Below are positions 6,082 through 63,130 of a DNA stretch of 64,000 nucleotides, in pieces (position 1 is the stretch's first letter; each line of letters starts with the position of its first letter). Below the pieces are notes generated by a model. It searched no databases. It worked only from the letters and a program-made list of their open reading frames with translations, and had not been told where the DNA came from. This DNA comes from Marchantia polymorpha subsp. ruderalis (Eukaryota; Streptophyta; Marchantiopsida; Marchantiales; Marchantiaceae), in assembly GCA_037833965.1 (NCBI GenBank), contig AP031351.1, positions 5,034,501 to 5,098,500 of the forward strand. The letters are read 5' to 3'. The translations under genes and the position numbers were made by a program.

Positions 6082-6119
6082 AGCGCGATGAGATGAATTA
6101 GAATTCATCTCATCGCGCT
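6082..6119. repeat. Perfect 18-bp palindrome with 2-nt centre
   Basis: AGCGCGATGAGATGAATT (6082-6099) is followed after two bases by its exact reverse complement (6102-6119). It lies about 25 bases outside the last position of the left arm that can be compared with the right arm in this window. It resembles the foldbacks found at arm-to-arm differences. Confidence 0.85.
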
Positions 6120-6143
6120 TCGTTCTTGACACGAACGTCCTAA

Positions 6144-6990
6144 GAAACCGAAGTTTCTCAAAACCCAGTCAGTCCGTCGTGAGACTCGATGAGCTCTTCG
6201 GTAAAACGTCGTCTTTCTTCGCTCGGTCCGAGTCTTCAAGGGACGTAGATTCCAAACTTCTGGAATCCGCAATGTGGTGGATTTCGGCCTCAACCGGAGT
6301 GAAAGTGGAGGTAGTTCGATTCAATTTCATAGAGTGATTCAGATTTGCTTTCGGCTTCGTCCATAGCTGAAGGAGCAAAGCGTCATTCCGACCTTCGAGC
6401 GTTTCGGCGAGGTTGCGGTGCGCTACAGACCATCCCAGCGCCAACCAGAAGCGATAGCGAGACTCGACTTTAGACTCTAGCCGCTCTAGATTCAGCTCTC
6501 GTCGATCCTTCGTCCATCATCTTCCTTCCTTCACACACTCCAAAAAGCCACTCTCCCCGGGGCCGGGTCCCAAGCCGAGGGGAGTGTGAAACGACGAAAT
6601 TGCAGAACCTTCTCAAAAACCTTCTCGGATCGTAAACGTCAAATGGATGGAGGACAAACTCGATCGAGAGAGAGAGCCTGTATATTCTCAGAGATGCTTC
6701 CTCGATGATAGCGGCGGCGTCGTTGTTCCGCGTGCTGACAGGTCGAAGGCTTACGTACTCATTCCGGAGACAGAGATTCGACGTGAGCTGTAACGTGGCT
6801 AGCAAGCGACTCACGGTCGACATCTGGCTCGCAATTCGGAAGCCGACTGCAACGTGCGGGCCAATCGGAGTAGCGATTCCCACCCGCAACAACAGCGACA
6901 TCGACAGCGACGTCCGCCAGTCGCCTCGTTGATGGACTGTACTTGATTTGATAGCGAGGGTCATCACCAACCCACATCCGATTCGACCGA
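6144..6990. other. Shared block downstream of the ROCO gene, no recognised gene
   Basis: This segment matches 63135-64000 in inverted orientation. On the minus strand an open frame (6470-6970) starts MVMTLAIKSSTVHQRGDW. The matching frame in the right arm hits a stop after about 60 residues, so coding is not supported. A GC-rich stretch near 6553 (CCGGGGCCGGGTCCC) is conserved in both arms. It may be a leader or promoter of a neighbouring gene, but nothing identifies one. Confidence 0.45.
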
Positions 6991-7274
6991 GAACCTCTGA
7001 ACGGAGTACTCCCTCGCTCCATCACTTTCTGGAAAGTGTTTCTCGGAAGATGCTCCAGTACACAGCTGTGAACACCTGCAGCAGAGACGGATGAAGGTTG
7101 TTGCGGGCCCATGCCCACCAAGATGCAGCTCTCAGAGTAATCGTCTGCCAGAACTCCGACGAGGTACTTCGATTTTGACTCTAGATCCCGGACTGTGATT
7201 CTCTCTCCATTGCGCTCCCCCGACGATTGCTTTGCTCTGCTGAGATCGTCCGTTTGTCCTCGTCATGTCAAACG

Positions 7275-7608
7275 ATGGCGATCTTCTGTGGATTTGGCAG
7301 ATTCAAGCGCAGGGTGAGCGATGACGACCGGATGTGAGTTCTAGTTTCCTGATCCCTCGTGGTCGGCAAGCCCTTGGCTAGCTGTCCGACGTCGTCATAG
7401 CTTTTCGTTTTCTTAAAGGTTGGAGTTGCTTTTGGAGCACGATTCTCTCTACGAACGCGATTATTTAAAGAGTCCTCGATCGGGATCGGCTTGTCTTAGT
7501 GCAATCCAGCAGAAATCAAGTCATCTGCATGTGGAGGAAAACTCCGATCGGGCTCGATCTGCATGTGGAAGAAAACTCCGATCGGGCTCGATTTTGATTG
7601 TCTCATGA
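7275..7608 (+). CDS. Possible small two-exon gene, unknown product
   Basis: Exon 7275-7333 encodes MAIFCGFGRFKRRVSDDDR and ends at GAT/GTGAGT. A 3' site TTAAAG at 7418 allows splicing to 7419-7608, giving MLELLLEHDSLYERDY and a stop, 82 residues in all. The last third is encoded by two copies of a 34-bp tandem repeat (7523-7590), so the original end has probably been altered. I do not recognise the protein. It could be the surviving 5' end of a longer gene. There is no counterpart in the right arm. Confidence 0.3.
7523..7590 (+). repeat. 34-bp tandem duplication
   Basis: Two consecutive copies of a 34-bp unit starting ATCTGCATGTGGA, differing at one base (GGAGG against GGAAG), lie inside the small reading frame. 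Confidence 0.85.
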
Positions 7609-7874
7609 ATTATTCCCACCATCCACTTCTGATTAAAATTCTTCATAGATTACAGATGCAGCGCAACAAAGCTACCCAGCTGCAGTCACGTATCTAAGAA
7701 GTCATTCGAATGTTGACATCTTTACCCTCTTTTTTACAGACTCCGCAACATCCACAACGTAAAACTACGTTCACATGCAAATCATTTTACCCATGAGGTT
7801 TGCAAAGCAGTATTGGTCTCTTCAAAAGCCTGCCGCTTGAAGAGTGCACATCGAGTGTTACTAAAGCACATCTT

Positions 7875-7923
7875 GAACACTGCATGTGGTCGGAACATGC
7901 AGTTCCGACCACATGCAGTGTTC
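7875..7923. repeat. Perfect 22-bp foldback with 5-nt loop
   Basis: The arms at 7875-7896 and 7902-7923 are exact reverse complements and begin GAACACTGCATG. The loop is ATGCA. It lies inside the block found only in the left arm. Confidence 0.9.
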
Positions 7924-9694
7924 CAAATTGCACTCGTGTTTAAACAAGGCCACCAACTGTGTAAAAATAACATAATCTGATCTTTATTCCGTGTCCATTC
8001 TACAGTTGTTGTACCCTCATCATTCATAACAATCATTCTGGTATATGTATCCAAATTCAAGGCTGACAACCCAACGTTTAAGTGGAGTGATTTCATCATG
8101 GCGAGACTTGCAACAAGCCGCAATTAAAACTTTGTACTCAAAAATGTAATTTTGATAGATTAGCCAGAGACAATTTTTCAGAAACATACTCAAAAACATG
8201 ACTGCGCGATTGACATGATTGCAAACATTACGAAAGACTTTTACGATTCAAAACTCTAAGACAGATTTTGCAGAGGTTCATATTGCATGAGGGTCTAAAC
8301 ATATCCTTGTCAATTGCATAATGGCATTCTTACCTCCTTCAAATCCTAATCTGTCAAAATTCCACTACTAAGACCTTCATGCATGCACTCTTCGCACACC
8401 CATGCATGACCATCTAATTCTAGACTCACGTATTTCACCTGATACAACTTGAAGATTACCGAATAGCTATCTCGAAGCTGAGACGCAAGAGTTTGCTGAA
8501 TCCTCAGCCATGCTTCTTTGAGCTCCATGCTTTTCCCACCTTTTAGAACTGCCCTACGATCACGAGAGCTGATGTCATCTAGTTTAACTATATCAGATTT
8601 TAAATCCTCCCAGTCCGGAACCGTTTGGCCCAAATTGAGAGTTTTATCTAGTCCAGCCTTCACAGCATAATAGATGATTTTGTATGAAATTTCAATAGTT
8701 TTTCGAATCCACGTGCAATTCTCCCGATCCAAGCGTATTTTCAAACCTTCTTGATCTTGGACTTTGTGAAACCCAGTCACCGACTTACACATCAAGTGTA
8801 ATCGAACGGTTGTCCCAGCATGCAGAAGCGCACTTATCCTATAGAAAACGCCAACATCGTCCGTCACATAAGGTCTCTTAGGAGTTCTCGCCTGCTGAAG
8901 CGATTGAGTATACTCAATCTGCCTGTCTACTTTAAACATGAAGTCCATCAACCTTGTCTGGAATTCTTGATGGAAAGTTAGTATCTGTCCCAGCTTCATC
9001 TCCACTCTCTCTACCACACTCTCCACTGATCTCAACCTCTCATCCACTTCAACGAAGTTGGACCTATCATGTCGATCTGAATAACTCGAGTTGCCAATAC
9101 TGTTCTCACTTTTAGTGTAAGGTTGATCCAAATCATTGCTCCCACTTATGAAGGCTTGCCGAAATGATTCCAATTGTTGGACGCACTTCTGTCGGATCTC
9201 ATTCACAACCGCTTCCACATCGCTCTCCGGCAGCAAATCCCTAGCTCTTTCGGATTTTACCGATGTGTACCCTTTAATTGAGGGCCAAGAGTGCTCATAG
9301 TTGAACAACTCTTCCTCTTTCACCAACTGCAACTTCTCCCGCGAAATATTCTTAAGTTTGTCCTCGATGCTACGAATGAAGTTTGATTTGAGCTCCTCAA
9401 TCAGAATAGCTTCTCTGATATGACTCGGAATCAGCATCTTTACACAATGTGTTTGAATCACACCGAGCACTAACGTCACCCCGGGACAACCTTTTGGTGA
9501 TGCGCAAAATGATTTCAACTCCTCGACGATATGCTCAATCACGTATTGCAGAGCCTCCGACCTTGATTTCCGCTTCGAGCGTAACATCAAAACGTCCAAG
9601 TAATTGTGGGACGCTCCTTGCTCGACGTAGATTTCGTACCCATCAAGGAAAAGTTGCAGATAATGTCGAGAGCAGATCACATTCTTCTCAGAAA

Positions 9695-9722
9695 CATGCA
9701 ACTCTGAACATGCAACTCTGAA
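9695..9722. repeat. 14-bp tandem duplication in ROCO exon 3
   Basis: CATGCAACTCTGAA occurs twice in direct succession (9695-9708 and 9709-9722). The right copy has a single equivalent segment. Because 14 is not a multiple of three, the duplication puts the start of exon 3 out of frame with the rest. With one unit the reading frame runs through. Confidence 0.85.
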
Positions 9723-10222
9723 CTCTTGCGTCTCATGAACATCTGCAATAATACAAAATTTAACAAAATTGAGCTGCGCATTCCAGAAATTGAATTCATC
9801 TTATGAAAAGGGAATACTCTATTCATCAATCACAAGTTACAATTAGAACTTGACGAATTCAATCTTCTCACAAAATATATAAAATCACCTGGAAGCATGG
9901 AAAAAAAGCAGCGGTCAATGACATCGTTCTTCCATCTTGGCATTTAATCCGTATGCCGATAAACTGTGAAGTCTCATCCCTAGTTTCCCAAGCTAATTCT
10001 TGAGGCTTCGGTTCTTCCGTGCTTGCATGCTCAGGTATGAAGGAAGGAATGAAATACTGACAAGGATCTTCCACCTTGAAACACAAATCTAAATTGATAA
10101 GGATGTCTTCAAGCACTTTTTCGTCCACATCTCCCTGTCCATGTGGATGCTTTGCTAGAAACTCTTCTATCAATCTAGCAAAGACACCCTCACTCACAAA
10201 TCCGTCCTTGCTTGTGTATGAC

Positions 10223-12636
10223 TGTGGTAACTCACTTTTTGTTTTTTGTCGGAACTAAAACATTTTTGAATAGTAAGTACCGCGGCAGCAGCTGTAAATA
10301 GTTATCGGTACGCGAAACCAGAGTAAAAAGAGTATCGAGGACAGTCAAGGGGTTTTGGGCTTAGGCCACAGTGGGACGCTTAGGACGGAACGGGCGGTTC
10401 ATGCTGCAGGATCCGCTTCAAGCACCTTCGGCGGTAGATCACTCATAACTTTCTCAATTCGTAACGTCTTGAGTTGCTTCGGATCTTGTTGGAAAGAGCT
10501 CGCGACGCTCGTTCTAACGAGCCCAAGAACTTGTGAAACGGATGAGAGGTCACTGAGTTATGAGTGTCGGAAGTTACTGATGGGGGGGCCTTCGGCGGTA
10601 GAGCGACTTTGGCGGTACTCCTGCGGCGGAAGAACCGCCGGAAGATGCGCCTTGGGCGGTAGACGCCTTCGGTCAACGCCTTTGGCGATGCGGGAGAGTG
10701 CATTCGGCGGAAGAGTGAATCCCTCATAACTTTCTCAATTCGCAACGCCTTGACTTGATTAGGGTCTCGTTCGAAAGAGCTCGACGCGCTGATTCTAACG
10801 AGCCCAAGAACGCCACGAACGGAGGAGAATTCCGGGAGTTATGAAGGTCGCAAGATACTCAGCTTTCCACCTACGCACAGGCGAAGAAAGTTTTGTCCTA
10901 TGCGCGGACGAAGGAAGTTCGCCTGCGCACAGGCGTTCGCCTGTGCACAGGCGCTTCGGCGTCGGCGGGAAATCCGCCTTGGGCCCTAGAAATTGTACGG
11001 CGCCTTCTGCGCCAACGCAGCGCCGCGGACGGCCAGGTCAGCGCCGCGGACGGACTGTGGATAGATGAACGCCTTTGGCGGAAGAGTAAAACCGACATAA
11101 CTTTCTCAATTCTTAGCGGTTTGACTTGATTCGGGTCTCGTTGGAAAGAACTCGACGAGTTGGTTCGAACGAGCCCAAGATCTCTTGAAACAGATAAGGC
11201 GTCAATGAGTTATAAGCGTCGAAAGCGGCTGTCATGGTTAGGCGTGAGGCCTTCGGCGTTAATAGTTAGAGGGGCCTTAGGCCCAAGGCGGCCTGCGAGT
11301 AGGCGGCTTGCGTGTAGGACGCGTGGAACCCACAGTCCTCGGATTTTGGAGAAGGAATTTTGGCCTAGGTTCAGAGATCTTGCGGGGCCCATATCTTTGC
11401 GATGGACGGTCGGATGGATCTGAAGTTTTGTGGGGCCGTTGATCTCGGCCGGCCACGCATGCGTGCAAATTTTCAGCCTCAGATCTTGGATGGAGAGGCG
11501 CTGGCGGCTTTGTACAGTAGGCTTAGGATTAAGATTTAGGGTTAGGGTTAGATTTAGGTTGTAAGTTAGAGGGGAAGGAAGCCGCCGACTCCTCAGGTGT
11601 AGGATCTGTTGCGGCTCGCACCATGGCATTGCAGTGTAGTGTTAGGTAGGACTTAGAAGGTATAAAATAGTTCAAGGCGTTTTGCCTTGGGTTCTTTCCC
11701 AATTTCGGAAGTGCAGATCAGGAACCCATTTTCTCTGCGTGTTTGTGTACTTAAGTTCTGTCACCACGCACGAGGAGTTACAACTTAGCGTTCCGCATTT
11801 TGTAGCTGAAGGCCTTCGGCCGAATGTTCAGAGCTAGTACATTGGTTAGAGACTTGAGTAGTTCGGATCTACACTTGCGGGTGATTGTCGATGCTCAGAG
11901 CCAGTGACTAGTTAGATACTTGAACAGTTTCGCCCCTACACCTTCGAGTGTTCCTTTCTGATTGTACTCCCTTGGGATTTTTCCCCTGAATGCCAAAGTG
12001 AAGTTTTGCTACTTCGTGTAAGCCTTGGTTGTAAATTCAGGTTACGCTGCAGCAGGTGCCTTGAGGGTAATCCCTGTAGTATTTCTGGGAATGACAAGTG
12101 CCTGAGAATTCAAACTCTTCAATAGACTGTTGTTGTGTTACTGGAATGTTTCTCAGTGAGTCATTCAGTGCGGACCTGTGTTCTCTGCGCGTTTTGTGAG
12201 TTGAGAGTGTTGTTCACCGCGTATGAGTGACTTCGATCCGAAGTAGGCAGTCCAAACCGGGTTTCCTACGCTAGCAGCAAGCTAGCGGAAGTGTTGTAAA
12301 AGCCGGAGTTGGGAGTCACTACCCGCAGCTTCGCTGAGTGTACTCTCGAGAGACTTTTCCCCCCTGAAATCTTGAGTAGAGGTCCTAACGGATCTCTGGG
12401 TTGTGTTTCTGTAGTTTCAGCTGTGTGTGTGTGTGTGTTACGCTGCACTGTGCGACCTCCGAGTGCGCTCTGAGTGGACACTTGCAGTATTTCTGGGAGT
12501 GACAGTTGCCTGAGAATTCAAACTCCTCAATAATCTGTTAAAACGTGACACTTTGTACCCTGTGTGTTCCTCTGTCCCTGTGGGTTCGACCTTTCTACCA
12601 CTATATTGCAGTTTTAGCCTTTAGTGGGTTATTACA
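10223..12636. mobile_element. Solo LTR of an LTR retrotransposon, 2414 bp
   Basis: Fossil element inserted in ROCO exon 2. It is bounded by TGTGGTAACT and GGTTATTACA (TG...CA ends with short imperfect inverted repeats) and flanked by the 5-bp target duplication ATGAC (10218-10222 and 12637-12641). The right arm shows the uninterrupted site. A TATA-like box (TATAAAATAG, 11661-11670) and internal repeats fit a long LTR. No internal coding region is visible, so it is a lone LTR, probably left by recombination. Superfamily is not determinable. It inserted after the arm duplication, so it is relatively young. Confidence 0.85.
10447..11225. repeat. Three diverged copies of a ~130-bp unit inside the LTR
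   Basis: Units beginning AACTTTCTCAATTC recur near 10447, 10729 and 11098, each followed by a shared GGTCTCGTT- or GGATCTTGTT-like segment, GAAAGA, and AACGAGCCCAAGA about 50 bases on. A second internal duplication pairs about 12075-12130 with 12485-12540 (TGCCTGAGAATTCAAACTC). Confidence 0.75.
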
Positions 12637-14461
12637 ATGACTCACTTGACATCGTGTTCTCAAAAGACTTGGAGTCATCAGCTTGAAAGTGTTGACCCAG
12701 AGCTATCAACTCACCCAAGAAAGTATTGGTTAGCCAATTAGGATCCACAATGATGAAATCAAGGTTGGGGATGTGTATGATGGATCCAACGTCATTCAAG
12801 TAAGATATGACCGAGCTCATTATCCTTGAATGATCAACAGAGTGTGCAGAAGATGAAGGAATGAATTGATTCAAACTAAGAGCACAGAATTCATGAAACT
12901 TTTTGGATGGCCACAGAGGGCAACTTCTGTTTTTTTTGGTGTTTTTAACCAAGAGGGAGGTGAGTTGAAAACACAAATGGGGAACCTTTGGGGATCTTTC
13001 ACTCAACAACTCCTCAAAATTTTTAAAAATATGACTTTTGAGAGGGATAACTTGCTTGTTATTTCGAGCATCTACATGAAAAAACTCTTGGCAGAGATCC
13101 ACAAAATTTGCGAATCTTTTGGTCAGTTCTTCAACTATGGAGCGAGCCCAAGTCAAAGAGCGGGTTCTTGCTTTATCTTTGTGTGAAATCACAACAATAA
13201 CTTGAGGAAGATTATGTCCTATGACCTTGGTGCTGGATGTAATGAAATTCAACCACTCCTCCAATTCAGATCTAAAACAAGAGTCTGGTTTGTTCGAAGA
13301 TGTTTTTGTACAAAAGAGGCTATATACAAAAAGAAAAACACAGAAATTGTTGGTTTGAGGAAACAAAACATTTTGAAGAGTACGAAAAATCCATTGTCCT
13401 GCAAGATCCCAAACTGAAATTTGCATTTCTTCATTATTTTGCAAAAACTCCACTTCAATGCCTTTGGTTCTGAGTTTGTTCCATTTGCTCGCAAGCCGAC
13501 TGTTGCCTTGGATTACACTCATTAGCGTTCGACGCAACTGAGTTTTGCCTACAGATGAAAAAAAATAACGACAACAAATACAACTTGTTACTTTAGATGT
13601 TTTTTACGAATTATATAATAAGATATTCTGAGTTCCACCTTTAGAATTTCAAATTTAAATAGGAATTTATCTCTCGATTGATTTAATCTGTACTTCTAAT
13701 TTATTTTATTGAGTTTTGCACACAATTATGAAAACATCTAGATCAAAAAATAAACTTCGTAAATTCAAAATTAATCATTGAAAACTAACAAGTTAGATTA
13801 CTGCTTTGCAAACCTTGAGAAAAAAACTGAGAATTTACAGAGCACGTTACCTGCTCTAGGAGAGCCGCATAAGAAGAGTCGACCAGCTTTTGCAGCTCCA
13901 AATGTTAATTTGGCTTCTCGGAACACGGACATGTAGACGGCCCGCTTCCGGTTCTGCTTTAGGGCCTCTTGAATTTTCGCCGCCTTTCCGTCTGTTTGCC
14001 ACAAGGTTCCTGAGATATCGATTTCCTCCAGAGTCAAGTTGACTTGCAGTAGCCCCATGAGATCCCTGAACGCCTCTTCGTCAAAAACGAGTTCGCTTTG
14101 TAACACCGAGCGAGACAAATCCAAGTGAGTGAGACTTGTGTCCTCTCGCAAGCACCGAAGCAAGTCTTTCCATACTCCCTTCAAATCATCTTTGTTATTA
14201 ACAGATAATCTCAGTCTTTTCAGGACTGAAGTTTCTCCGGGTTTCCGATTCATCGACAGGATTCTTCCCATTCTATCTTGGTTGGTACCTGAAGTGCGAG
14301 GATCACTCGCCAGTATACTCAAAGATTTTAGAGATTTGATTTCACCGCGCAGAACCCTACCTAATAGATTCAATGATAACATCCATTCATCATGGTCATC
14401 CGAAACTACGAGTTGAAGCTCCATTTTGGGATCCTTGACATCGGAGCTAGCAGCCTGCGCA

Positions 14462-14496
14462 AGAGCTTCTATTGACTTCCAGTCAATAGAAGCTCT
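14462..14496. repeat. 16-bp hairpin within ROCO coding sequence
   Basis: AGAGCTTCTATTGACT (14462-14477) and its exact reverse complement (14481-14496) flank TCC. They encode part of RASIDWKSIEAL. The right copy lacks precisely the 38 bases containing this hairpin, near 59205. Confidence 0.9.
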
Positions 14497-16582
14497 AAAA
14501 GATAAAGAAACTTTTTTTATAGCACTGTCACGTATGACCTCGTCGAGCTGGTGCCATTTCTCAGGGCGCATTCGCAAGTCAGACAACCTCATTTTCTTCA
14601 ATGGGTTGGAAATTCGCAACTCAGACATCCTCACTTCCTTCAATGATGGGTTGGAAGTAAGGAGTTCCCTTATACAGTCTCCGAGTCTTTCCATACCGAG
14701 TGTATCCATTCCAAGAAGAAGACGTTCAATGGAACGGTTGCGATCATCTCCGGCCAAAGCCTTCAGCAACAAGGCCGCTCCCCAAGTCCCATCATCTAAT
14801 GTGATTTTCTTCAAAGACGAACTGTGGATCAAAGCCTGGGACACGATTCTAACGGTCTCTTCATCCATGTCGTACCTTGAGTGGCGTAAACTCAACGTTT
14901 CTAAAAGAGGAGCACTGTTGATCATGTCAGCCACACGCTTCACTGCACTCAAGTCCCCCCACGCGTTTTTGAGTCCTAAATACTTTAGATTAGAATCAGA
15001 GTTTCCTCGCAGTCCTGAGGAAAGATTCAGGAAACATCTCGCAGTCAAAGGGCAATCGTCTATTTCCAAACGCTTTACGGTAGAGGTACTCAGAATTCTC
15101 CCCAGCTGTAAACACAAGCTCTCCACTTCCGTATCTGAACTCCAACTCAAACCTCCAAAGCGTATCTCTCGTAGAATGGTGCTAGATCTGAATCCTCTCA
15201 TGACTACATCCCATTCGCTATCCGTCAAACTCCATGCCTCTCCGCCACATATAACTCCTACATCCAAATGATCAAGGGTGTTGCAGTTGCCGATTGCCTC
15301 CAGCAGTCGAAGGCGCAATTGGCTTCGCCACCCTATTTTCGCCGAGAGAGATGCATCCCCCGGAGAGAAACTCCCAAACCTATACAGACCTAAATCTCGG
15401 AGTCTCGTTATAGTTTCGCCTTTTCCTTCCAGACGCTGTATAAGGTCCTCGACCTTGCGGAGAAGCTTTGGATCCTCGTCTGAGTCCATTCCCCGTGTCG
15501 CAACTTCAGCGTCGACCTCGCGGGGAAGCTCCGGTTCCTCGTCTGCGGAGTCCATTCCTCGTCTGCGTGTGTCAAGTTCAGCAGCGATAGTGACGATGGA
15601 CGCACCTGCAACTTCCATTCTCTCCTCCAAATGTAATATAGCATACAAGAAACACCAATCCCAATTCAGAGTAATTTGTGAACTTCACATTGCAGTGTCA
15701 CAACTCGTGCACATGCACACGAGACTTGCTGGGCTTGTGCATGCTGGGCATGAGACTTCTTGCGCGGTGCAAGAGCAGCGACGCACAGATTACTCCAATC
15801 TCTGCAAATAAGCAAGCGGATCATGATCATGGTCAATCACCACTAACGCAGAGAGATTGTGCAAAGTGAAATCAGAATGCTGCTCTAACTCAGGTACAAG
15901 AAGCAATGTGAATCAAAATGAACGCAAAACACGATTCTGGTTCCAAGCAAATTCTTACATGGAAAGAGGAATTTCACAGAGAGGCGTTTTATGTTCGCTG
16001 TTAACCGAACTGGATGGACAAGCTCTCTGCAGGTGAATTTGAAATGAATCGAGGCAAGGAGGATGCGATGTGAATGCACAATGTCCTGGATAGCATGATA
16101 GGGAAGTACCCGAGTTGTGTAAGAACTCGATGTACAGTTGTAATGGGATACTGCGAATCTAGCTGCATCAAGACCCACAGGATGACAGCCCCTAAAATCA
16201 TACAGCATCTTCAATCAGATCTTGTCATTGACACGTGCGAGCGATCCGAGTAGATGTTGACTTTGTTGTGCAAGCGAACAGGATAAGTGGTGAGTCACAC
16301 AATGTGACTCACACTGATGCATTCAGTGTGTTGATACACTCAATGTAGTCACGCTGACAACAAACATATAAAATGTATCTTCATTGAATCATTTTCCTGG
16401 AATCTTTGACCTATTCAAGCGAGTGGAGCAAGTGGAAGTATTATAACCACTGAGTGGCACATGCGCTGTTAGCCTGGTTGACAAAGCCTATTGTGATTTT
16501 TTCTTTGCTTTGAATATAGGAACAGTAGTCTACCTCACTCTGCATAACTTGTAGGTTCAGAACAAACTTATAAGCTATTCGG

Positions 16583-16621
16583 GAGTTTACAAGACATAAT
16601 GTATCAATGTCTTGTAAACTC
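16583..16621. repeat. 15-bp foldback, left arm only
   Basis: GAGTTTACAAGACAT (16583-16597) and its exact reverse complement (16607-16621) surround 9 bases. The matching place in the right arm (before ATAGCTTATAAG at about 56840) lacks the structure. Confidence 0.85.
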
Positions 16622-16648
16622 GCGAATCCATACCTCCATCTGAATCTG

Positions 16649-16790
16649 ACCTCCATACTCTGGAACAAGAACTGTGCATGTGCTCACATGCTTGACACCT
16701 GAGCTATAAGAAAAATCATATCAGCAATCAAGACCCTAGAGTACTCTTCTACTCTAATCAAAGTTGTATGGACTCATAGAGTATGGAGGT
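16649..16790. repeat. 13-bp inverted repeats around a flipped segment
   Basis: ACCTCCATACTCT (16649-16661) and AGAGTATGGAGGT (16778-16790) are exact inverted copies. The sequence between them (about 16662-16765) has the same plus-strand orientation as 56697-56801 in the right arm, although everything around it is inverted between arms. One arm has therefore undergone a local inversion. Confidence 0.8.
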
Positions 16791-17775
16791 CTCTACGCCT
16801 CAAACATGAAATAGAAATCGAATTTTGTCCGTGCTACGTGCACTCTAGCTTGTTTATCTCGTCGTATAGAAGTGGATAGAACCAGCATGATACTTGACGT
16901 CAACGTCAAACTTCTCAAGAAGTTACATTTTTTGAACTTGCTTGCAAGTGAAGAGAAACTGTGATGCATACATTTCTTAAAAGATACTTCTGATGCTAAA
17001 TGCTAGATAATCGTGATTCGTGACTTCACATGAAGATCTGATGTAACTGTACAAGTAAACTCAAATATCTGATATATTTACTGAAATTAATCAAGCCATA
17101 CCATATCATCCAAGTCATGCCACTTTTGCATTCGTATGCTCATAACATAAATCCAAACATGTCTAATGAAAAAAATAAAGCACATGGCCTAATTGATAAA
17201 CTTCCAGTTTCCGTTTCAAATGGAAACTTGTTATTTCAAGCCTGTGTCTCTCGTTTGTTTAAAGCATATTCAAATGTACAGAATTTGAAATTGTGATCAA
17301 ACACCTTGTGGATGTGAAGTCTGATTTGCATCTTTATTTGATGATACGTCCGATCTCAATATGTTAAGTTTTAAACAAGCTAAAATGAATTGTTTCGAAG
17401 AAAAAACGATTCAATAAAAGGTACGGCATTACATGTCTCTTGGGTTTTCTTAACTGTTTTAAAAATTTTTTCTCTACACTTCTTCAGCTTTTCAATTGCT
17501 TTTCAATTGATTTTCACGTTTTATAAAAACTGTTTACATTTTTTGAGGAGTAAATTTAAATTTTCATTATAAAATTAGTTCTTTCATAAATATATTCAAA
17601 ATCGGCCCAAAAAAATTCACACTTAAACTTTTATATAAAATATTGAAACAAGCCTTTAATAATAAAATAATAATGATGAATGTGCGAATTTCTTTTCAAT
17701 ATAATATCAACAAGATTGATTTTTGGATGCAATAATTTTTTATATAATTTTTAGTTTCTAATCGACATGATTTAT

Positions 17776-20100: not shown

Positions 20101-20254
20101 CATATGGTAAGGATTAGAGGGTTTCACGTCCTTGGTATCCATTGAAGCGCCTGTGCTCATCCACTTTGAAGGACAATTACAAGCTGTCCATATCCTGGAT
20201 TTTGTAGCTATGAAGGCGACAACGAAGCTGGCCACTGAAGCCATGAGTTCCAGT

Positions 20255-23175: not shown

Positions 23176-23206
23176 ACAAATAGATTTTCCCAGACATTAT
23201 TATGCG

Positions 23207-23352
23207 TTCAGATCGAGTTCCACCGATGCAGATCAGACATGTCTCGTCCGTTGAGAGATATGTCTCGTCATTAATATGAGTTCAGATCCAGTTCAGACCG
23301 ATGCAGATCAGACACGTCTCGTTCCGTTGAGAGATATGTCTCGTCCATTGTT
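23207..23352 (+). repeat. ~73-bp tandem duplication after the F-box gene
   Basis: Two adjacent, slightly diverged units share CCGATGCAGATCAGACA and GTTGAGAGATATGTCTCGTC. The second begins near 23280. Confidence 0.8.
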
Positions 23353-23479
23353 GCGCTACGATGCTGTCGAACATTCTTGGACGTGGGTGGGCAACTGGGC
23401 AACTGGGCGATTGTACAAGACGTTGATGACAGATTGAACCCTTGTCATATACGTCCAGTCTGGACTTTCCAACCCTCAC

Positions 23480-24626: not shown

Positions 24627-25502
24627 TCGCCGATTGTGCAGGAATGGATCCCTCGACCCGCTCTCACACACGACGGCCCCTTCTTCTGCTCACACTCGGT
24701 GCAAATAAGAATCCACCTCCGGGAACGCTTTGGACGAACAAGCATCCCCGGAGCGACCACGACGATGGGGAAGGCGGAGCGCTTATGGACGCGGCATCCC
24801 CGACCTACAACGGGCCGATATCAAGAAGTCGCTACGTGCTGTACTCAGCCGAAGCGCGGCTCGGGCGTATCTCCGTACTCGATAACATCTCGCAATCTGG
24901 ACATCAGAGCAAACCGTGAAAACCTTCGCAAGCACTTGTCTGCCGTTTGCTGGACAAAGCCAAATTCAAACTTTGAGGTTGTTTTGATTTTGATTTGATT
25001 TTGAACGGTCGCTGTATGGTTACAGGCTCGGTGCACGGCGTTAGATCTCATATATATATCCCGTTGAAAAACGTTCGAAATCATCCAAATATTTGAAAAC
25101 TTTTCATCGAATTTGAATCGCATTATGTAAGCGTAGGGACTCTCTTTCAGCACGTCCTCCCATCCAACTATCCCGCCCAAATTTGTATTATGAATCGTTT
25201 GTTCTTGGATTTTCTCGGCCAAACTCCAAGAAAATCTGTGCTTTATTATTTATTAATGTGATATTTAGTTGGTGTCAAATTGTAATAAACAGTTGCTTTC
25301 ATTCGATGCAGTGTGGCGGGTTCAAATGATGGACGAGGTACGAATAGAGATTCACATCTGAGATATGAATTTGGCTAATCAATTGTTTGGATACAAAATA
25401 ACGATCACAGTTACGTGACTGTGAACCTGGAGAACTTTAAACTGAACGCTTTGACTGTGCTGACAGATGGTGATAAAATAAGTAGGTCCTTGCAGAAGTG
25501 AT
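24627..25502. repeat. Dispersed repeat, copy B
   Basis: Direct repeat of 5098-5933. It keeps the minus-strand frame with LGGIVGWEDVLKESPYAYIM, and carries about 40 extra bases (from GGAGCGCTTATGGACGC near 24776). GATC occurs at the left edge and near the right edge, but no convincing target duplication is visible. Confidence 0.75.

Positions 25503-28693: not shown

Positions 28694-28696
<3 letters not shown>
27860..28696 (-). CDS. SRC2-like C2-domain protein
   Basis: Single-exon gene of 278 residues. Residues about 8-140 form a C2 domain: VELNIVSAVDLKKVKTLG, then CYVVAFVYRNQQKA, LNPVWNATLALTC, LTVEIHSHGTLRNKLVGSV. The usual acidic calcium-binding loop residues are mostly replaced, so binding may be calcium-independent. 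A Pro/Gln/Tyr/Met-rich linker follows (YGAMGYPPMMQQPQMMYGG), then GMGFGTGLMGGALGGLLVG, the glycine-rich hydrophobic stretch seen in SRC2 proteins, and an acidic glycine tail. Plant SRC2 proteins are membrane-associated and cold- or stress-linked, and one regulates an NADPH oxidase; that is family knowledge. GC content is high, giving long false frames on the other strand. It looks intact. Confidence 0.9.
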
Positions 28697-28727: not shown

Positions 28728-28731
<4 letters not shown>

Positions 28732-53400: not shown

Positions 53401-55003
53401 TGGTAAGGAAGAAGGTGGGCAAGGGGCGCACGGCCTGCGCGCCCCTGATGTCGAACTCGAAGGTGATTTTGGACGCCATGCTTTCGCCCTCCCACGCCGT
53501 CTCCAGCACCTCGCCCGGCGTGTCGTTGTCGTCGCTCACCTCCACCTGCAGGATCTGCATCTTGCCCATCCTCCTCCTCGCTCCCACTTCGCCCAACGCC
53601 TGCTTGGACAGTCGCCCCGCCTGCCACAGCCGATCGTACGGATCGGATGGGTACCTGCACCGCCGGATCAGACTCGTCGTCTTGCCACGGGTCCACAAAT
53701 TCCATTGTTTCGATCCATTCGATTAATTCAGTTGATTCTATTCATTCGATCGATTCGAATAATTCGATTCATTCAATTCATTCTCTTCATTCGATAGATT
53801 CGAGTGGTTCGATTCATTCTATTCATTCGATCGATTCGAAGAATTCGATTCATTCGAAACATTCTATTCATTCGATCGATTCGAGCAATTCGATTAATTC
53901 GATTGATTCATGGGCCTTCGAGGGGCTGGCTCGAGTATACACGAGGATGAAGGGGCACCGTAGAAAAGGATTCGCTGCGAGGAGGAGTACCTGACGGAGG
54001 GCGAGGACTCATTGCCGCCGAAATTGAAGCGGGCGACGGTGACGAGGTAGCTCGACTGCATCTTGGTGGTGGTGCCGGTGTTGGACTTGGCGCTGCCGCG
54101 ATTGCTGTACAGGGTGCCATTGAGGGGACGCAGCTCGAGCGACGAGATGGCCGCCATGGACGAGCGATCCTCCAGAGGCACCAGGCACACCAACAGGTTC
54201 GTGTCGAGCGAGCTCACCACCATCTCCACGGTCGTCGCCTCCGAGGGGTCCAGGTCGATGGTGGACACGAAGGTCGAGTCGACGGTGAAGTAGAAGCGCG
54301 AGCCGTAGGCGTCCAGCGGCACATTGCCCTCGGCCGTCAGGGCCCGGCTGGGGAACATGGCGCGCACCAGGTAGTCCGTCGAGGTGGTCGCGTCGTGCGC
54401 CACGGTCAGATTGTAGCAGTACTTGGACTTGGCCCTCGCGCCCGGCACGAACACCATGGCCGTCTTCAGCTGCTCGGCGTTGTCCTGCGCCTCCGGCCTC
54501 GCGCTGTTGAGCCGAACTCGCGCCCGCACCGCGACCCTCTAGTTCACGAGCTGCCTCTCCGAGTCCAGAAAGCCGTCGTCGCTCACCCACTCCATCAGCG
54601 TCACGGGGTCCACGCCCCCGGTGCCCCCGCAGTCGATGCTCACGTACCCTGCGACGCCCACACTCTCGCGACTCAGCCTCCGACCTCACGACGATCGGCC
54701 CCCCGCTCACCCAAATTTCCACCGGACCCCAGATTTTGACCCTGCGACCCTCGAGCCCGAGCACGAGCCCCATGCCAATGCACATTGCGACCCGCGACCC
54801 GCGACCGGACTCGCGTCATGGCTAGCGAAAATTGCCGTGAGAATGCAAAGGAAGAGAAGCTGGAAGGGAAGGGACTCACCGGTTATGTCCTGAGCCACGA
54901 CCGGCTCCGCTACGCACGCCCACAAAAGAATCCCCACCGCGACGACGGGCCAGACTTGAAATCCGGGCTGTCGCCGTTCGACTGAACGGCGCGACCGTGT
55001 CAT
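47459..55003 (-). CDS. Malectin-like/LRR receptor kinase, 18 exons, one in-frame stop
   Basis: Exons: 55003-54880, 54648-53991, 53654-53101, 52758-52632, 52531-52388, 52224-52150, 51904-51830, 51153-51010, 50854-50783, 50336-50145, 49987-49884, 49728-49582, 49444-49326, 49122-48915, 48647-48536, 48392-48270, 48138-47988, 47824-47459. They total 3495 bases, exactly 1165 codons. Order: signal peptide (1-38), malectin-like ectodomain (42-445), GDPC motif ([16 protein letters not shown]), LRRs in 72-75-base exons or doublets (to ~658), membrane helix (~767-790), kinase with GKGAFG, VAVK, HRDIKPQN, DFG and SPEY. The catalytic residues look complete. The ectodomain resembles LRR-I/SYMRK-like receptors and the kinase LRR-VIII. 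TAG at 54541-54539 (codon 78) would end translation early. Ligand unknown. Confidence 0.88.
53703..53911. repeat. (GATTCATTC)-like satellite in a receptor kinase intron
   Basis: About 210 bases of irregular ATTCGATTCATTC repeats lie wholly within the intron between exons 2 and 3. The serine/histidine/isoleucine frames it opens are not coding. Confidence 0.85.
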
Positions 55004-57064
55004 TCTCTCGAAGGAATGGCCTTCGATTTTGCTCCGATTCGCCCTCCGCTGTCAGTAATCCGAATTTTCTCAGAGCTGGTTCTCAAATTGGCGATCAATC
55101 CCTCGTCAACCACGACCGTGTGGTGGCAGCGCTTCTGAAATCCGAGCTGCGCATGTCCGCGTCCTGGCGACGGCCGTGCACATTGCTCGTCCGCTGGTGA
55201 CGAAGAGATTTCAGGCTCGGATCTCTCGAGAAGCCGACTCCGAGGGGAACTCGAACCGGACCAGGTGTGCGGTGTACATTCCTCAGCAGCCGAGCTCGTC
55301 AGCAACTATGTCCTCTCTTCGATTGCAGCACTCGCCAGTCCGAGTCCGATTCTGTCACCACCCTACGGACCCAGTGACCACTCGCCGGTGATATCTGAAG
55401 TCTGCAGCTCGACCGACGAGAGCTCAAACCAGCAAATTCAGCTCCGATTTCACGTTCGTTGCATCAGAGCGTCGAAATCCAGCTCGATGAAACGGCATGC
55501 CTCCAGTCCAACCTCCCGAGGCATCGTTTGCGAAGCAGAACCGCGCTATGAGAAGTCCTCGTCCACCTCGCTCGCTGGCCAGCGGCAGCAGCGGCAGGCA
55601 GGCAGCCAATGTCGAGCGACGGAAGCACAGAGCTACAACAGGATCTCGTCGGGACTCGACTCGACGTGCAGCTTCGCCCTGGTCCTCTGTTCAATGATGA
55701 AATGATCAATAATCAGGTCAATTAGAAACTAAAAATTATATTAAAAAAATATTGCTTTCAAAAAGCAATCTTGTTGATATTATATTGAAAAGAAATTCGC
55801 ACATTCATCATTATTATTTTAATTATTAAAGGCTCGTTTCAATATTGTATATAAAAGATTGAGTGTGAAATTTTTTGGCCGACACTGAATATATTTTTGA
55901 AAGAACTAATTTTATAATGAAAATTTAAATTTACTTCTGAAAAAATGTAAACAGTTTTTAAAAAACGTGAAAAGCAATTGAAAAGCTGAAAATTTGTTGA
56001 GACAAAATTTTGAAAACAGTTAAGAAAACCTAAGAGACATGTAATGCCGTAACTTTTATTGAATCGTTTTTTCTTCGAAACAATTCATTTTAGCTTGTTT
56101 ATAACTTAACATATTGAGATCGGACGTATCATCAAATAAAGATGCAAATCAGACTTCACATACACAAGGTGTTTAATCACAATTTCAAATTCTGTACATT
56201 TGAATATCCTCTAAACAAAAGAGAGACACAGGCTTGAAATAACAAGTTTCCGTTTGAAACGGAAACTTGAAGTTTATCAATTAGGCCATGTGCTTTAATT
56301 TTTTCATTAGACATGTTTGGATTTACGTTATGAGCATACGAGTGCAAAAGTGGCATGACTTTGTATGATATAGTATGACTTGTTTCATTTCAGTAAATAT
56401 ATCAGATATTTGAGTTTACATGTACAGTTACATCAGATCTTCATGTGAAGTCACGAATCACGATTATCTAGCATTTAGCATCAGAAGTATGTTTTAAGAA
56501 ATGTATGCATCACAGTTTCTCTTCACGTGCAAGCAAGTTCAAAAAATGTAACTTCTTGAGAAGTTTGACGTTGACCTCAAGTATCATGCTGGTTCTATCC
56601 ACTTCTATACGACGAGATAAACAAGCTAGAGTGCACGTAGCACGGACGAAATTCGATTTCTATTTCATGTTTGAGGCGTAGAGACCTCCATACTCTGGAA
56701 CAAGAACTGTGCATGTGCTCACATGCTTGACAGCTGAGCTATAAGAAAAATCATATCAGCAATCGAGACCCTCGAGTACTCTTCTGCCCTGATCAAAGTT
56801 TTTCAACATTATGAAAAATGATATAAGTCTGCCCAAATAGCTTATAAGTTTGTTCTGAACCTACAAGTTATGCAGAGTCACGTACAGTAGACTACTGTTC
56901 CGATATTCAAAGCAAAGCAAAAATCACAATAGGCTTTGTCAACCAGGCTAACATCGCATGTGCCACTCAGTGGTCAAAATACTTCCACTTGCTTGAATAG
57001 GTCAAATATTCCAGGAAAATAATTCAATGAAGATAAACTTTATATTTTTTGTCAAAGTCAACAT

Positions 57065-57438
57065 TAGGCTTGGCCACGGTTCGGTTCACGGTTAACCGGT
57101 CCGGAAAAATGTGGACCGGTTAACCGGTCCAGGATTGGTCTGTACAGATTAGCAGTTAACCGATATTTTAACCGGTCCCGACGGTTAACCATCGGTCCGG
57201 ACCCCTACGGTGGCCCCAGTGGAATGGCGTTAAAACCCAAAAATTCTCGATGGCAGAGGGAAAGAGGTGGGCCGTCGTTCAAATGAATACACCGTTGGAC
57301 TTTAGAGACTCGAGCTGAGTTGTACCACTTCGTGAAAAACTTTTCTCGTGAATTTTTTCACACTGAATCATGAATTGGGTACCTCGCTGGTCTGATTTTT
57401 TCCGGAGAAATCTGGGACCGGTAAACAGGCCAACCCTA
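57065..57438. mobile_element. hAT-like non-autonomous DNA transposon (MITE), 374 bp
   Basis: Terminal inverted repeats TAGGCTTGGCC and GGCCAACCCTA (one mismatch) are flanked by the exact 8-bp target duplication GTCAACAT (57057-57064 and 57439-57446). Subterminal GGTTAACCGGTCC motifs recur in both orientations. The ends and 8-bp duplication are diagnostic of the hAT superfamily. It has no coding capacity. It is absent from the matching left-arm position near 16250, so it inserted after the arms formed, or was lost from the left with the neighbouring sequence. Confidence 0.9.
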
Positions 57439-58115
57439 GTCAACATCTACTCGATCGCTCGCACGTGTCAATGACAAGATCTGATAGAAGATGCTGTATG
57501 ATTTTAGGGGCTGTCATCCTGTGGGTCTTGATGCAGCTAGATTCGCAGTATCCCATTACAACTGTACATCGAGTTCTTACACAACTCGGGTACTTCCCTA
57601 TCATGCTATCCAGGACATTGTGCAATCACATCGCATCCTCTTTGCCTCGATCCATTTCAAATTCACCTGCAGAGAGCTTGTCCATTCAGTTAGGTTAACA
57701 GCGAACATAAAACGCCTCCCTAAGTTGGAGTTTGCAATAGTTTTGCGTTTACGAGAGATGTGAAGTTCCTCTTGCCATGTAAGAATTTGCTTGGAACCAG
57801 AATCTTGTTTTGCGTTCATTTTGATTCACATTGCTTGTTGTACCTGAGTCAGAGCAGCCTTCTGATTTCACTTTGCACAATCTATCTACTCTGATCATGA
57901 TCCGCTTGCTTATGTGCATAGATTGGAGTAATCTGTGAGTCGCTGCTGTTGCACCGCGCAAGAAGTCTCATGCCCAGCAAGCACAACTCGTGTGTGCATG
58001 TGACACTGCGACGTGAAGTTCACATTGAGATGGGGGTTTCTTGTATGCTAACTTTCATTTGGCCAACTCCTGCCAAGCTGCAAACGTTTCCTTATTTGTG
58101 AGAGTGGAGGAGAGA

Positions 58116-61100
58116 ATGGATGCGTCCATCGTCACTATCGCTGCTGAACTTGACACACGCAGACGAGGAATGGACTCCGCAGACGAGGAACCGGAGCTTC
58201 CCCGCGAGGTCGACGCTGAAGTTGCGACACGGGGAATGGACTCAGACGAGGATCCAAAGCTTCTCCGCAAGGTCGAGGACCTTATACAGCGTCTGGAAGG
58301 AAAAGGCGAAACTATAACGAGACTCCGAGATTTAGGTATGTATAGGTTTGGGAGTTTCTCTCCGGGGATGCATCTCTCTCGGCGAAAATAGGGTGGCGAA
58401 GCCAATTGCGCCTTCGACTGCTGGAGGCAATCGGCAACTGCAACACCCTTGATCATTTGGATGTAGGAGTTATATGTGGCGGAGAGGCATGGAGTTTGAC
58501 GGATAGCGAATGGGATGTAGTCATGAGAGGATTCAGATCTAGCACCATTCTACGAGAGATACGCTTTGGAGGTTTGAGTTGGAGTTCAGATACGGAAGTG
58601 GAGAGCTTGTGTTTACAGCTGGGGAGAATTCTGAGTACCTCTACCGTAAAGCGTTTGGAAATAGACGATTGCCCTTTGACTGCGAGATGTTTCCTGAATC
58701 TTTCCTCAGGACTGCGAGGAAACTCTGATTCTAATCTAAAGTATTTAGGACTCAATAACGCGTGGGGGGACTTGAGTGCAGTGAAGCGTGTGGCTGACAT
58801 GATCAACAGTGCTCCTCTTTTGGAAACGTTGAGTTTACGCCACTCAAGGTACGACATGGATGAAGAGACCGTTGGAATCGTGTCGCAGGCTTTGATCCAC
58901 AGTTCGTCTTTGAAGAAAATCACATTAGATGATGGGACTTGGGGAGCGGCCTTGTTGCTGAAAGCTTTGGCCGGAGATGATCGCAACCGTTCCATTGAAC
59001 GTCTTCTTCTTGGAATGGATACACTCGGTATGGAAAGACTCGGAGACTGTATAAGGGAACTCATTACTTCCAACCCATCATTGAAGGAAGTGAGGATGTC
59101 TGAGTTGCGAATTTCCAACCCATTGAAGAAAATCAGGTTGTCTGACTTGCGAATGCACATGGCACCAGGCGAGGTCATACGTGACAATGCTATAGAAATT
59201 TTTTCTTTATCTTGCGCGGGCTGCTAGCTCCAAAGTCAAGGACCCCAAACTGGAGCTTCAACTCGTAGTTTCGGATGACCATGATGGATGGATGTTATCA
59301 TTGAATCTATTAGGTAGGGTTCTGCGCGGTGAAATCAAATCTCTAAAATCTTTGAGTATACTGGCGAGTGATCCTCCCACTTCAGGTACCAACCAAGATA
59401 GAATGGGAAGAATACTGTCGATGAATCGGAAACCTGGAGAAACTTCAGTCCTGAAGAGACTGAGATTATCTGTTAATAACAAAGATGATTTGAAGGGAGT
59501 ATGGAAAGACTTGCTTCGGTGCTTGCGAGAGAACACAAGTCTCACTCACTTGAATTTGTCTCGCTCGATGTTAAAAAGCGAACTCGTTTTTGACGAAGAG
59601 GCGTTCCGAGATCTCATGGTTCTACTGCAAGTCAACTTGACTCTCGAGGAAATCGATGTCTCCGAACCTCTTGGGAAACATACGGAAAGGCGGCGAGGAT
59701 TCAAGAGGCTCTAAAGCAGAACCGAAAGCGGGCCGTCTACATGTTCCGAGAAGCCAAATTAACACTTGGAGCTGCAAAAGCTGGTCTACTCTTCTTATGC
59801 GGCTCTCCTAGAGCAGGTAATGTGCTCTGTAAATTCTCAGTTTTTTTCTCAAGGTTTGCAAACTAGTAATCTAACTTGTTATTTTTCAATGATTGATTTT
59901 GAATTTATGAAGTTAATTTTTTTGATCTAGATATTTTCATACTTGTGTGCAAAACTCAATAATATAGATTACACCTACAGATAAAATCAATCAAGAGATA
60001 AATTTCTATTAAATTTTGAAATTTTTAGTGTGGAAATCAAAATATTTTATTTTATAATTCAAAAAAAATATGTTAAGTAACAAGTTGTATATGTTGTCGT
60101 TATATGTTATGTTATGTATATGTTATGTTTTGTTTCATCTGTAGGCAAGACTCAATTGCGTCGAATGCTCATGAGTGTAATCCAAGGCAACAGTTGGCTT
60201 GCGAGCAAATGGAACAAACTTAGAACCAAAGGCATTGAAGTAGAGTTTTTGCAAAATAATGAAGAAATGCAACTCTCAGTTTGTGATCTTGCAGGACAAT
60301 TGATTTTTCTTACTCTTCAAAATGTTCTCTTCCCTTAAACCAACAATGTCTTTGTTTTTCTTTTTGTTTATAGTTCTTTCTGTAAGAAAACATCTTCGTA
60401 CAAACCAGATTCTTGTTTTAGAACTGAATTGGCGGAGTGGTTGGGTTTCATTACATCAAGCATCAAGGTCACAGGACATAATCTTCCCCAAGTTATTGTT
60501 GTGATTTCACACAAAGATAAAGCAAGATCTCGCTCTTTGACTTGGTCTTGCTCCATAGTTGAAGAATTGACCCAAAGGTTCGCAAATTTTGTGGATCTCT
60601 GCCAAGAGTTTTTTCACGTAGATGCTCGGGATAACAAGCAAGTTATTCCTCTCAAAAGTCATATTTTTAAAAATTTTGAGAAGTTGTTGAGTGACAAATT
60701 ACCACAAGTTCCCCATTTTTTAGGTTTTCAACTCACTTCTCTCTTGGTTAAAAAACAACAAGAAAAATAGAAGTTGTCCTTTGTGGCCATCCAAAAGGTT
60801 CCAAGAATTCTGTGCTCATAGCTTGACTCAATTCATTCCTTCATCTTCTCCACACTCTGGTGATAATTCAAGTATAATGAGCTCAATCATATCTTATTTG
60901 AATGACGTTGGATCCATCATATACATCCCTAACCTTGATTTCATCATTGTGGATCCCAACTGGTTAACCAATACTTTCTTGGGTGAGTTGATATCTCTGC
61001 GTCAACACTTTCAAGCTGAAAATTCCAAGTCTAGTGATAACACGATATCAAGTGAGTCATACACAAGCAAGGATGAATTTGTGAGTGAGAGTGTCTTTGT

Positions 61101-62936
61101 TGGATTGATAGAAGAGTTTCTGGCAAAACATCCACATAGATAGGGAGTTGTGGACGAAAAGGTGCTTGAAGATATACTTATCAATTTAGATTTGTGTTTC
61201 AAGGTGGAAGATCCTTCTCAGTATTTCATTCCTTCTTTCATCCCTGAGTATGCAAGCACAGAGTATGCAAGCACAGAAGAACAGAAGCTTCAAGAACTGG
61301 CTTGGGAAACTAGGGATGAAACTTCACAGTTTTTCGGCATCCGAATTCAATGCCAAGATGAAAGAACTATGTCATTGACTATTGCTTTTTTCCCATGCTT
61401 CCAGGTGATTTCATATACCTAGTGAGAAGATTAAATTCGTCAAGTTCTGATTGTAACTTGTGGTTGATGATTAGAGTGTTTCCATTTCATAAGATGAATT
61501 CAATTTTTGAAATGCATAGCTCAATTTTGTTAAATTTTGTATCATTGTAGATGTTCATGAGACGCAAGTTGATATACAAGTTGCATGTTTCCAAAAAGAA
61601 TGTGATCTGCTCTCGACATTATTTGCAACGTTTTCTTGATGGGTACAAAATCTACGTCGAGCAAGAAACGTAGCACAATTACTTGAACGTTATGATGTTA
61701 CGCTCGAAACGTAAATCAAGGTTGAAGGCTATGCAATACGTGATTGAGCATATCGTCGAGGAGTTGAAATCATTTTGCGCATCACCAAAAGTCTGTCCCG
61801 GGGTGACGTTAGTGCTAGGTGTGATCCAAACACATTGCGTAAAGATGCTGATTCCGAGTTATCTAAGAGTAGCCGTTCTAATCGAGGAGCTCAAATCAAA
61901 CTTCATTCGTAGCATCAAGGAAAAACTTAAGAATATTCCGCCGGAGAGGTTGCACTTGGTGAAAGAGTAAGAGTTGTTCAACTATGAGCACTCTTGGCCC
62001 TCGATTAAAGAGCACACATCGGTAAAATCCGAAAGAGCTAGGGATTTGCTACCGGAGAGCGATGTGGAAGCGGTTGTGAATGAGATCTGACAGAAGTGTA
62101 TTCAACAATTGGAATCATTTCGGCAAGCCTTCATAAGCAGGAGCAATGATTTGGATCAACCTTACACTGAAAGTGAGAATAGGGTTGGTAACTCAAGTTA
62201 TTCAGACCGTTCTGATAAGTCCAACTTCGTTAAGGTGGATGAGAGGTTGAGATCAGTGGAGAGCGTGGTCAAGAGAGTGGAGATGAAGCTGGGACAAATA
62301 CCCACTTTCCACCAAGAATTCCAGACAAGGGTGATGGACTTCATGTCTAAAGTTGACAAGCAGATTGAGTATAGTCAATCGCTTAAGCAGGCGAGAACTC
62401 TCAGGAGACCATACGTGACGGACGATGTTGGAGTTTTCTATAGGATAAGTGCGCTGCTGCATGCCGGGACAACCGTTCGATTACACTTGATGTGTGAGTC
62501 GGTGACTGGGTTTCACAAAGTCCAAGGTCAAGAAGGTTTGAAAATACGCTTGGATCGGCAGGATTGCGTGTGGATTTGAAAAACTATTAAAATTTCTTAC
62601 AAAATCATCTCTTATGCTGTGAAGGCTATACTAGATATAATTCTCAGTTTGGGCCAAGCGGTTCCTGGCTGGGAAGATTTAAAATCTGATATAGTTGAAC
62701 TAGATGACATTAGCTATCGTGATCGTAGGGCAGTTCGAAAAGGTGGGGAAAGCATGGAGCTCAAAGAAGCATGGCTGAGGATTCAGCAAACTCTTGCGCC
62801 TCAAGTTCGAGATAGCTATTCGGCAATCTTCAAGTTGTATCAGGTGAAATACGTGAGTCTAGAATTAGGTGTGCATGCATTGGTGTGCCAAGAGTGCATG
62901 CATAAAGGTCTTAGTAGTGGAATTTTGACAGATTAG
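58116..62936 (+). pseudogene. TORNADO1-like LRR-Roc-COR gene, right copy, multiply disabled
   Basis: Same exon plan as the left copy: 58116-59816, 60145-61404 and 61551-62936, starting MDASIVTIAAELDTRR. Lesions relative to the left copy: loss of one G in a G-run near 58368, a 38-base deletion near 59205 that removes a hairpin, a frameshift near 59665-59690, stops at 60336, 61141, 61671, 61968, about 62088 and 62577, and frame changes near 60410 and 60756. The P-loop parts are still visible (GSPRAG before and GKTQLRRM after the intron), as is DLAGQ. Unlike the left copy it has no LTR and no 14-bp duplication. It cannot encode a full protein; spliced transcripts could still be made. Confidence 0.92.
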
Positions 62937-63047
62937 GATTTGAAGGAGGTAAGAATGTCATTATGCAATTGACAAGGCTATGTTTAGACCCTCATGCAAT
63001 ATGAACCTCTGCAAAATCTGCCTTAGAGTTTTGAATCGTAAAAGTCT

Positions 63048-63130
63048 TCCGGAAGACTCTGAAAAAGATTACGGAAGTTACGTTCCGTATGAAAGTATGA
63101 AAGCTCGAATCTTTTTCAGAGTCTTCCGGA
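63048..63130. repeat. Perfect 23-bp foldback, right arm only
   Basis: The arms at 63048-63070 and 63108-63130 are exact reverse complements, beginning TCCGGAAGACTC. The 37-base centre contains a nested ACGGAA...TTCCGT pair, and the left edge is itself a palindrome (AGTCTTCCGGAAGACT, 63043-63058). It stands where the left arm has about 1.25 kb. Confidence 0.92.

Follow-up and report, generated by a model that had tools for sequence, protein, structure and literature searches.

Short-range template switching as the probable origin of perfect foldbacks in two inverted arms of a Marchantia polymorpha locus

Introduction

Five perfect foldbacks, with arms of 15-23 bp, stand in two inverted and diverged arms of a locus in Marchantia polymorpha subsp. 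ruderalis, and the question they raise is how perfect pairing came to lie amid diverged sequence. The window analysed here is a stretch of 64,000 nucleotides (AP031351.1, positions 5,034,501-5,098,500), in which self-BLAST finds the two inverted arms about 38 kb apart. A preliminary description of this DNA proposed that differences between the arms coincide with the foldbacks, and that these were recently created by template switching or lost by slippage across hairpins. Comparison with the many related copies elsewhere in the genome allows the order of events to be read at several of the sites. We give a probability of roughly 0.85 to the reading that short-range template switching makes the foldbacks, with end-joining filler accounting for the one at 63048.

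Results

The left arm (5931-17772, plus strand) and the right arm (55711-64000, minus strand, extending 213 bases beyond the window to 64213 in extended coordinates) align by self-BLAST in pieces of 87.6-93.8% identity on opposite strands, with homology breaks between the arms at left 6991/8228, right 63134/63054, and left 16583. Both comprise a degenerate gene region and its flanks (gene region at window positions 8346-15648, on the minus strand, and at 58100-62940), with Pfam matches to LRR, Roc and COR-A, every one of them under the curated cut-offs; on the left these lie on the minus strand. The gene region belongs to a dispersed family, as seen among the best 40 of 174 and the best 40 of 185 candidates, with all 40 of the 174 matched; many of its places, among the matches listed, are concentrated on contigs C9 and C5. 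One literature search found no related study of Roco genes in Marchantia. WRKY domains, a plant family, have 22 matches in this genome, some being separate pieces of a single gene, and none in 14 control genomes, as befits a plant. A direct repeat of about 877 bp (91.7% identity by self-BLAST) occupies 5097-5933 and 24627-25502, and its left copy stops where the left arm starts.

A scan for perfect arms of at least 15 bp with loops of 3-60, over the 73 kb made up of the window and 9 kb beyond it, returned five foldbacks, beginning at 6082, 7875, 14462, 16583 and 63048, and no other; all five had been placed correctly in the preliminary description. The same description held that a similar foldback density in unduplicated DNA, with no enrichment at indel edges, would speak against its reading. 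Control DNA of the same genome, 96.7 kb in total, contains no foldback whose arms reach 15 bp: none in the 52.7 kb of window and extension outside the arms, where the scan gave one AT-rich foldback with 14-bp arms and one of 12 bp, and none in six stretches at round-number genome places (44 kb), which gave one low-complexity foldback of 13 bp. First-order Markov sequences modelled on the family DNA yielded none with arms of at least 13 bp in three runs of 150 kb, and a mean of 1.0 with arms of at least 12 bp per 150 kb. By length share alone the placement of all five foldbacks inside the arms has p = 1.6e-4, which overstates the support because the arms were chosen on account of the foldbacks. 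Family DNA elsewhere, a 150-kb set that excludes ten loci belonging to the arms in the window and their surroundings, with parts at least 95% identical to an earlier locus masked, holds nine foldbacks with arms of at least 15 bp, one of them a TA run and two the inherited stem described below for 7875. The density of 5 in 20.3 kb of arm compared with 9 in 150 kb of other family DNA gives a Poisson p of 0.008, in a comparison biased by the arms having been picked for their foldbacks and the other loci by likeness to the foldback surroundings, and a locally raised rate is only suggestive.

The clearest history is that of the foldback at 14462-14496 (16-bp arms, loop of 3), which sits within a left-arm open frame of 616 codons that reads through the stem; its 3' arm is new in the outer portion. 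Against 27 distinct copies (right arm included; identical sequences are counted once in the mean identities here and at 7875 and 16583) the 5' arm has a mean identity of 94% and the 3' arm 41%, and the 5' arm is complete in 15 of the copies and the full 3' arm in none. Many paralogues carry a short stem, TGACT-TCC-AGTCA, at the matching place, and one copy (L013) has a longer one, TATTGACT-TCC-AGTCAATA. This comparison shows the stem to be derived in the left arm, where it would have grown from a shorter one.

The foldback at 7875-7923 (22-bp arms, loop of 5) would likewise be a derived enlargement, a 16-bp snap-back insertion extending an inherited 13-bp stem. Sixteen bases of the left arm are missing from all seven aligned paralogues, most of which have a 13-bp stem with a 7-nt loop and 0 or 1 mismatch (L008 has more); the extra bases take the stem from 13 bp to 22 bp. 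Mean identity to the seven copies is 85% for the 5' arm and 56% for the 3' arm, the low value being due to the 16-bp gap, and the paralogues thus show the foldback to be derived in the left arm, apparently from the shorter stem. The arms of the 13-bp stem are 96-100% conserved in six of the seven copies, at least equal to the flanks. Allowing up to three mismatches, the 13-bp stem with its 7-nt loop occurs at 28 genome sites, against 0 for a reversed-pattern control, and, among the matches listed, in 20 of the 24 copies spanning the place (24 of 41 match rows being taken as spanning it). This inherited stem-loop is located in the flank of the gene family, and may have a function there, close to the 3' end of the gene. 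The foldback had been called left-only; it is indeed missing on the right, owing to a 1.24-kb right-arm deletion around it, and its own 16-bp indel is visible only against the paralogues and not between left and right.

At 16583-16621 (15-bp arms, loop of 9) it is the whole 3' arm that is new. The 21 distinct copies available here (20 different sequences from 27 loci, together with the right arm) match the 5' arm at 76% and the 3' arm at 49%, and none has the full 3' arm; the donor arm falls short of its 5' flank in conservation (76% against 86%), and the 21 copies show no short ancestral stem with this pairing. Set against these copies the foldback is shown to be derived in the left arm, where an inherited arm appears to have been joined by its new reverse complement.

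Just past this foldback lies a local inversion of 118 bp in the left arm (16648-16765), which by self-BLAST matches right 56683-56800 directly instead of inverted. The 118-bp piece has the opposite orientation to its neighbour piece in 37 of the 37 other copies that carry both (among the matches listed, right arm included), and a 13-bp end of the inverted piece occurs in both orientations within the left arm. A reverse-complement scan of left against right gave three pieces, all of this inversion, compared with 0 reversed and 0 complemented; the same scan recovered none of the foldbacks, an outcome probably due to loss or alteration of the donors in the right arm. The right arm at the place matching 16583 (56820-56880) differs from the 20 aligned paralogues too, and carries there a separate short inverted repeat, TTTTTCA...TGAAAAA. 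From these alignments the spot may have been hit twice.

Loss by slippage, the other process put forward in the preliminary description, fits one case. The right arm lacks exactly 38 bases around the 14462 stem, as had been stated (junction at 59213-59214, minus strand; counterpart left 14461-14498), and the right-arm frame 58406-59227 stops just beyond the loss. In the left arm AAGA stands at the 5' edge of the stem (14461-14464) and again past its 3' end (14499-14502), 38 bases apart, and the right arm is without one AAGA and the bases up to the next, that is, left 14461-14498. Slippage between the AAGA repeats across the stem is a fair reading of these edges, resting on a single case in which nothing proves that the right arm ever carried the full stem.

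The foldback at 63048-63130 (23-bp arms, loop of 37) is of another kind. It stands as filler at the junction of the 1.24-kb right-arm deletion, as opposed to left 6992-8227, which by self-BLAST is without a right-arm counterpart; the claim that it is confined to the right arm in place of about 1.25 kb is borne out. In most rows of the best 40 of 185 candidates the paralogue homology ends at query position 149 or 150, the start of the foldback, the paralogues covering one side only and none the outer side, and among the same candidates the filler interior has no other match. The filler, of about 80 bases, is self-complementary in pieces and contains a palindrome (15 bp or longer) as well as repeated copies of its own segments, and no origin outside itself was found as a match longer than 11 bp in the 73 kb. 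A deletion with self-templated filler at its junction is expected of a polymerase-theta end-joining scar, and 63048 has both features.

The foldback at 6082-6119 (17-bp arms, loop of 4, left arm only) had been placed just outside the compared arm, and lies inside it, since the left arm begins at 5931. Only two copies were found in the genome. Counted by eye, left and right disagree in 11 of 39 columns, two in the 5' arm of the foldback, two in its loop and seven in its 3' arm, an asymmetry which, from this two-copy comparison, fits what the same template-switch process would leave.

How far do the foldbacks coincide with the edges of left/right indels? Those at 14462, 16583 and 63048 are 1-2 bp from the edge of an indel (5 bp or longer), and there the proposed coincidence stands; the nearest edges to 7875 and 6082 are 147 bp and 275 bp away, and for these two it falls. 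The enrichment check that had been proposed gives, for three of five near an edge, p = 0.006 within 5 bp, 0.02 within 10 bp and 0.06 within 20 bp, with cut-offs picked after the fact and an arm alignment forced across two non-homologous stretches (the 1.24-kb and inversion regions), which makes some edges arbitrary.

Transposons explain two further arm differences, together with a sixth foldback, to judge from their ends and target duplications. The left arm alone carries a solo-LTR-like insertion of 2,414 bp (10223-12636) with TG...CA ends and a 5-bp duplication, ATGAC, whose last 400 bp have 39 other full-length matches at 97-99% among the best 40 of 2,134 candidates. The right arm alone carries a MITE-like insertion of 374 bp (57065-57438), whose ends are inverted and whose target duplication is the 8-bp GTCAACAT; 73 matches, its own included, are listed from the best 40 candidates, and we take it to be of hAT type. 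The sixth foldback (57089-57126, 14-bp arms), absent from the preliminary description, lies within this insertion. Foldbacks as a general cause of arm differences are not supported, as these 2.4-kb and 374-bp insertions are ordinary and two of the five foldbacks are away from left/right edges.

The signature seen in the left arm, a stem missing from relatives that nonetheless have the donor arm, recurs in other family members. Among the matches listed, a 23-bp stem in L041 is absent from all 13 other copies and a 16-bp stem in L064 from all 14 others; a 16-bp stem in L003 is missing in 4 of 4 others. At least three other family copies therefore show what looks like the same template-switch signature. 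Foldbacks with too few relatives (those of L005/L007, L008, L015 and L043, and the one at 441-484 of L064) are excluded from the supporting cases; the L005 stem is common to L005 and L007 and is without an outgroup. Inverted duplication was considered as the cause of the foldbacks and is not supported, because the signature is found in family copies elsewhere.

We also searched private insertions for inverted templates within 80 bp. In 176 kb of family DNA there are 41 such insertions of 8-80 bp, filtered from 565 by dropping any with fewer than three spanning copies, or absent from fewer than 80% of these or from fewer than two. Templates of at least 12 bp were found for two of the 41 (7875 itself and L041), with 0 in the mirror and 0 in the complement control; at 9 bp and above there were four, against one and two in the mirror and complement controls, at 8 bp four against three and three, and at 7 bp eight against four and six. 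Direct-repeat templates are commoner among the insertions (six at 9 bp and above). The excess of inverted templates has the expected direction but is small, on small numbers. Long inverted templates are real, though most insertions lack them, and short ones cannot be told from chance.

Discussion

What unites 14462, 7875 and 16583 is that an exact reverse complement of an inherited arm replaces the old sequence or is inserted beside it, and that relatives without the stem yet with the donor arm are met at each, as they are for L041, L064 and L003. Under template switching the growing strand would pair with itself, at 14462 and 7875 through a short stem already present, copy some 11-16 bases backwards along its own arm and then return to its template. 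The 118-bp inversion could be part of the same event as 16583, or a further switch, copying the opposite strand. At 63048 a break would have been end-joined with repeated snap-back copying, of the sort that DNA polymerase theta carries out, and slippage between the AAGA repeats across the 14462 stem would have removed the 38 bases from the right arm. Creation by template switching, as first proposed, is backed by paralogue pre-states at three foldbacks; 63048 enters it in another form, as self-templated filler, and 6082, with two copies only, may belong to it by its similar asymmetry.

A related reading is that every one of the foldbacks is a break-repair scar, made by microhomology end joining with snap-back filler and not by switches in replication; it overlaps with ours and differs in the route. 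Plants form such scars, end-joining repair of this kind is treated in PMC5068794, PMC4912351 and PMC10923293 (in the parts of these papers available), and 63048 is just such a deletion with self-templated filler. But hardly any sequence, or none, was lost at the switch in 14462 and 7875; in both it falls at a stem already in the paralogues, and they resemble quasi-palindrome conversion. We consider break repair at every site somewhat unlikely.

That the foldbacks are instead ancestral functional stems, binding protein or acting in RNA, and lost from the other copies, is highly improbable. The 13-bp stem beneath 7875 is indeed inherited, and its arms are conserved at least as well as the flanks, but the parts that make the foldbacks perfect occur in no other copy (full 3' arm 0/27 at 14462 and 0/21 at 16583; 16-bp extension 0/7 at 7875), and a single gain is much more probable than disappearance from all the others. 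Artefacts of assembly or library preparation are to be thought of, as the foldbacks are known from assembled sequence alone, but the changes are short, two coincide with stems that paralogues also have, an inversion and the replacement of sequence are among them, and a similar-looking stem is common to two separate copies, L005 and L007; an artefact is very hard to credit. Scarcely credible is an origin of the five as separately inserted MITE-like mobile elements, a possibility the preliminary description raised against itself and which does suit the unlisted foldback at 57089-57126, lying as it does within the 374-bp repeat that has inverted ends and has duplicated 8 bp of its target, but which we reject for the five because one arm is inherited local sequence in three cases and no full derived stem is listed a second time (none among the best 38 of 38, 40 of 174, 40 of 178, 2 of 2, 40 of 185 and 40 of 56 candidates).

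Template switching with end-joining filler at 63048 remains the preferred explanation, and it raises the matter of rate. That the Marchantia nuclear genome, or this gene family, makes such foldbacks unusually often, with the same short ancestral stem hit repeatedly, is in our view doubtful. Were it true, template switching would genuinely contribute new stems and frame changes to a fast-evolving family of receptor-like genes. A large paralogue family provides natural before/after pairs in one genome, from which the switching rate, seed length and route could become measurable. There is also a warning here: a cluster of differences, or an indel, that separates duplicates may go back to a single event.

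Few polarised cases of foldbacks made by template switching appear to be on record for plants: titles and abstracts yielded no study of such events in the nuclear DNA of a plant, in a search made mainly among openly available papers, which is weak evidence of absence. The comparisons with other systems refer to the available parts of each source. Short-range template-switch mutations have been described in great apes under a four-point model (PMC7954356). As there, one local reverse-complement copy explains a cluster of changes, new perfect inverted repeats arise, and stems exist beforehand in a subset of cases; whereas that work is genome-wide and uses a pair-HMM, ours draws on many paralogues at few places in one plant genome. 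In yeast, arm homogenisation and spacer inversion occur at imperfect inverted repeats (PMC8604942), and the Marchantia events are like these in turning stems of 4-5 bp into perfect ones of 11-16 bp, in having a companion inversion and in falling within coding sequence. They are unlike the yeast events, in the part of that report available, in that some insert 12-23 bases and in that the inverted piece, at 118 bp, is much longer than spacers of a few bases.

Template switching also creates RNA hairpins (PMC8794818), where, as here, a stem is lengthened by an inserted reverse complement, although our stems are known as DNA sequence alone. The 59 definite microinversions of 17-33 nt reported between human and chimpanzee (PMC8755829) share with the Marchantia inversion its small size and precision and the inverted repeats at its ends, the piece here being 118 bp. 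The deletion at 63048, with filler from flanking or its own sequence, is like the products of polymerase-theta end joining, so far as PMC5068794 and PMC4912351 describe these in the parts available. The mechanism is already known from apes, yeast and bacteria, and the locus described here is a clear, well-polarised instance of it in a plant.
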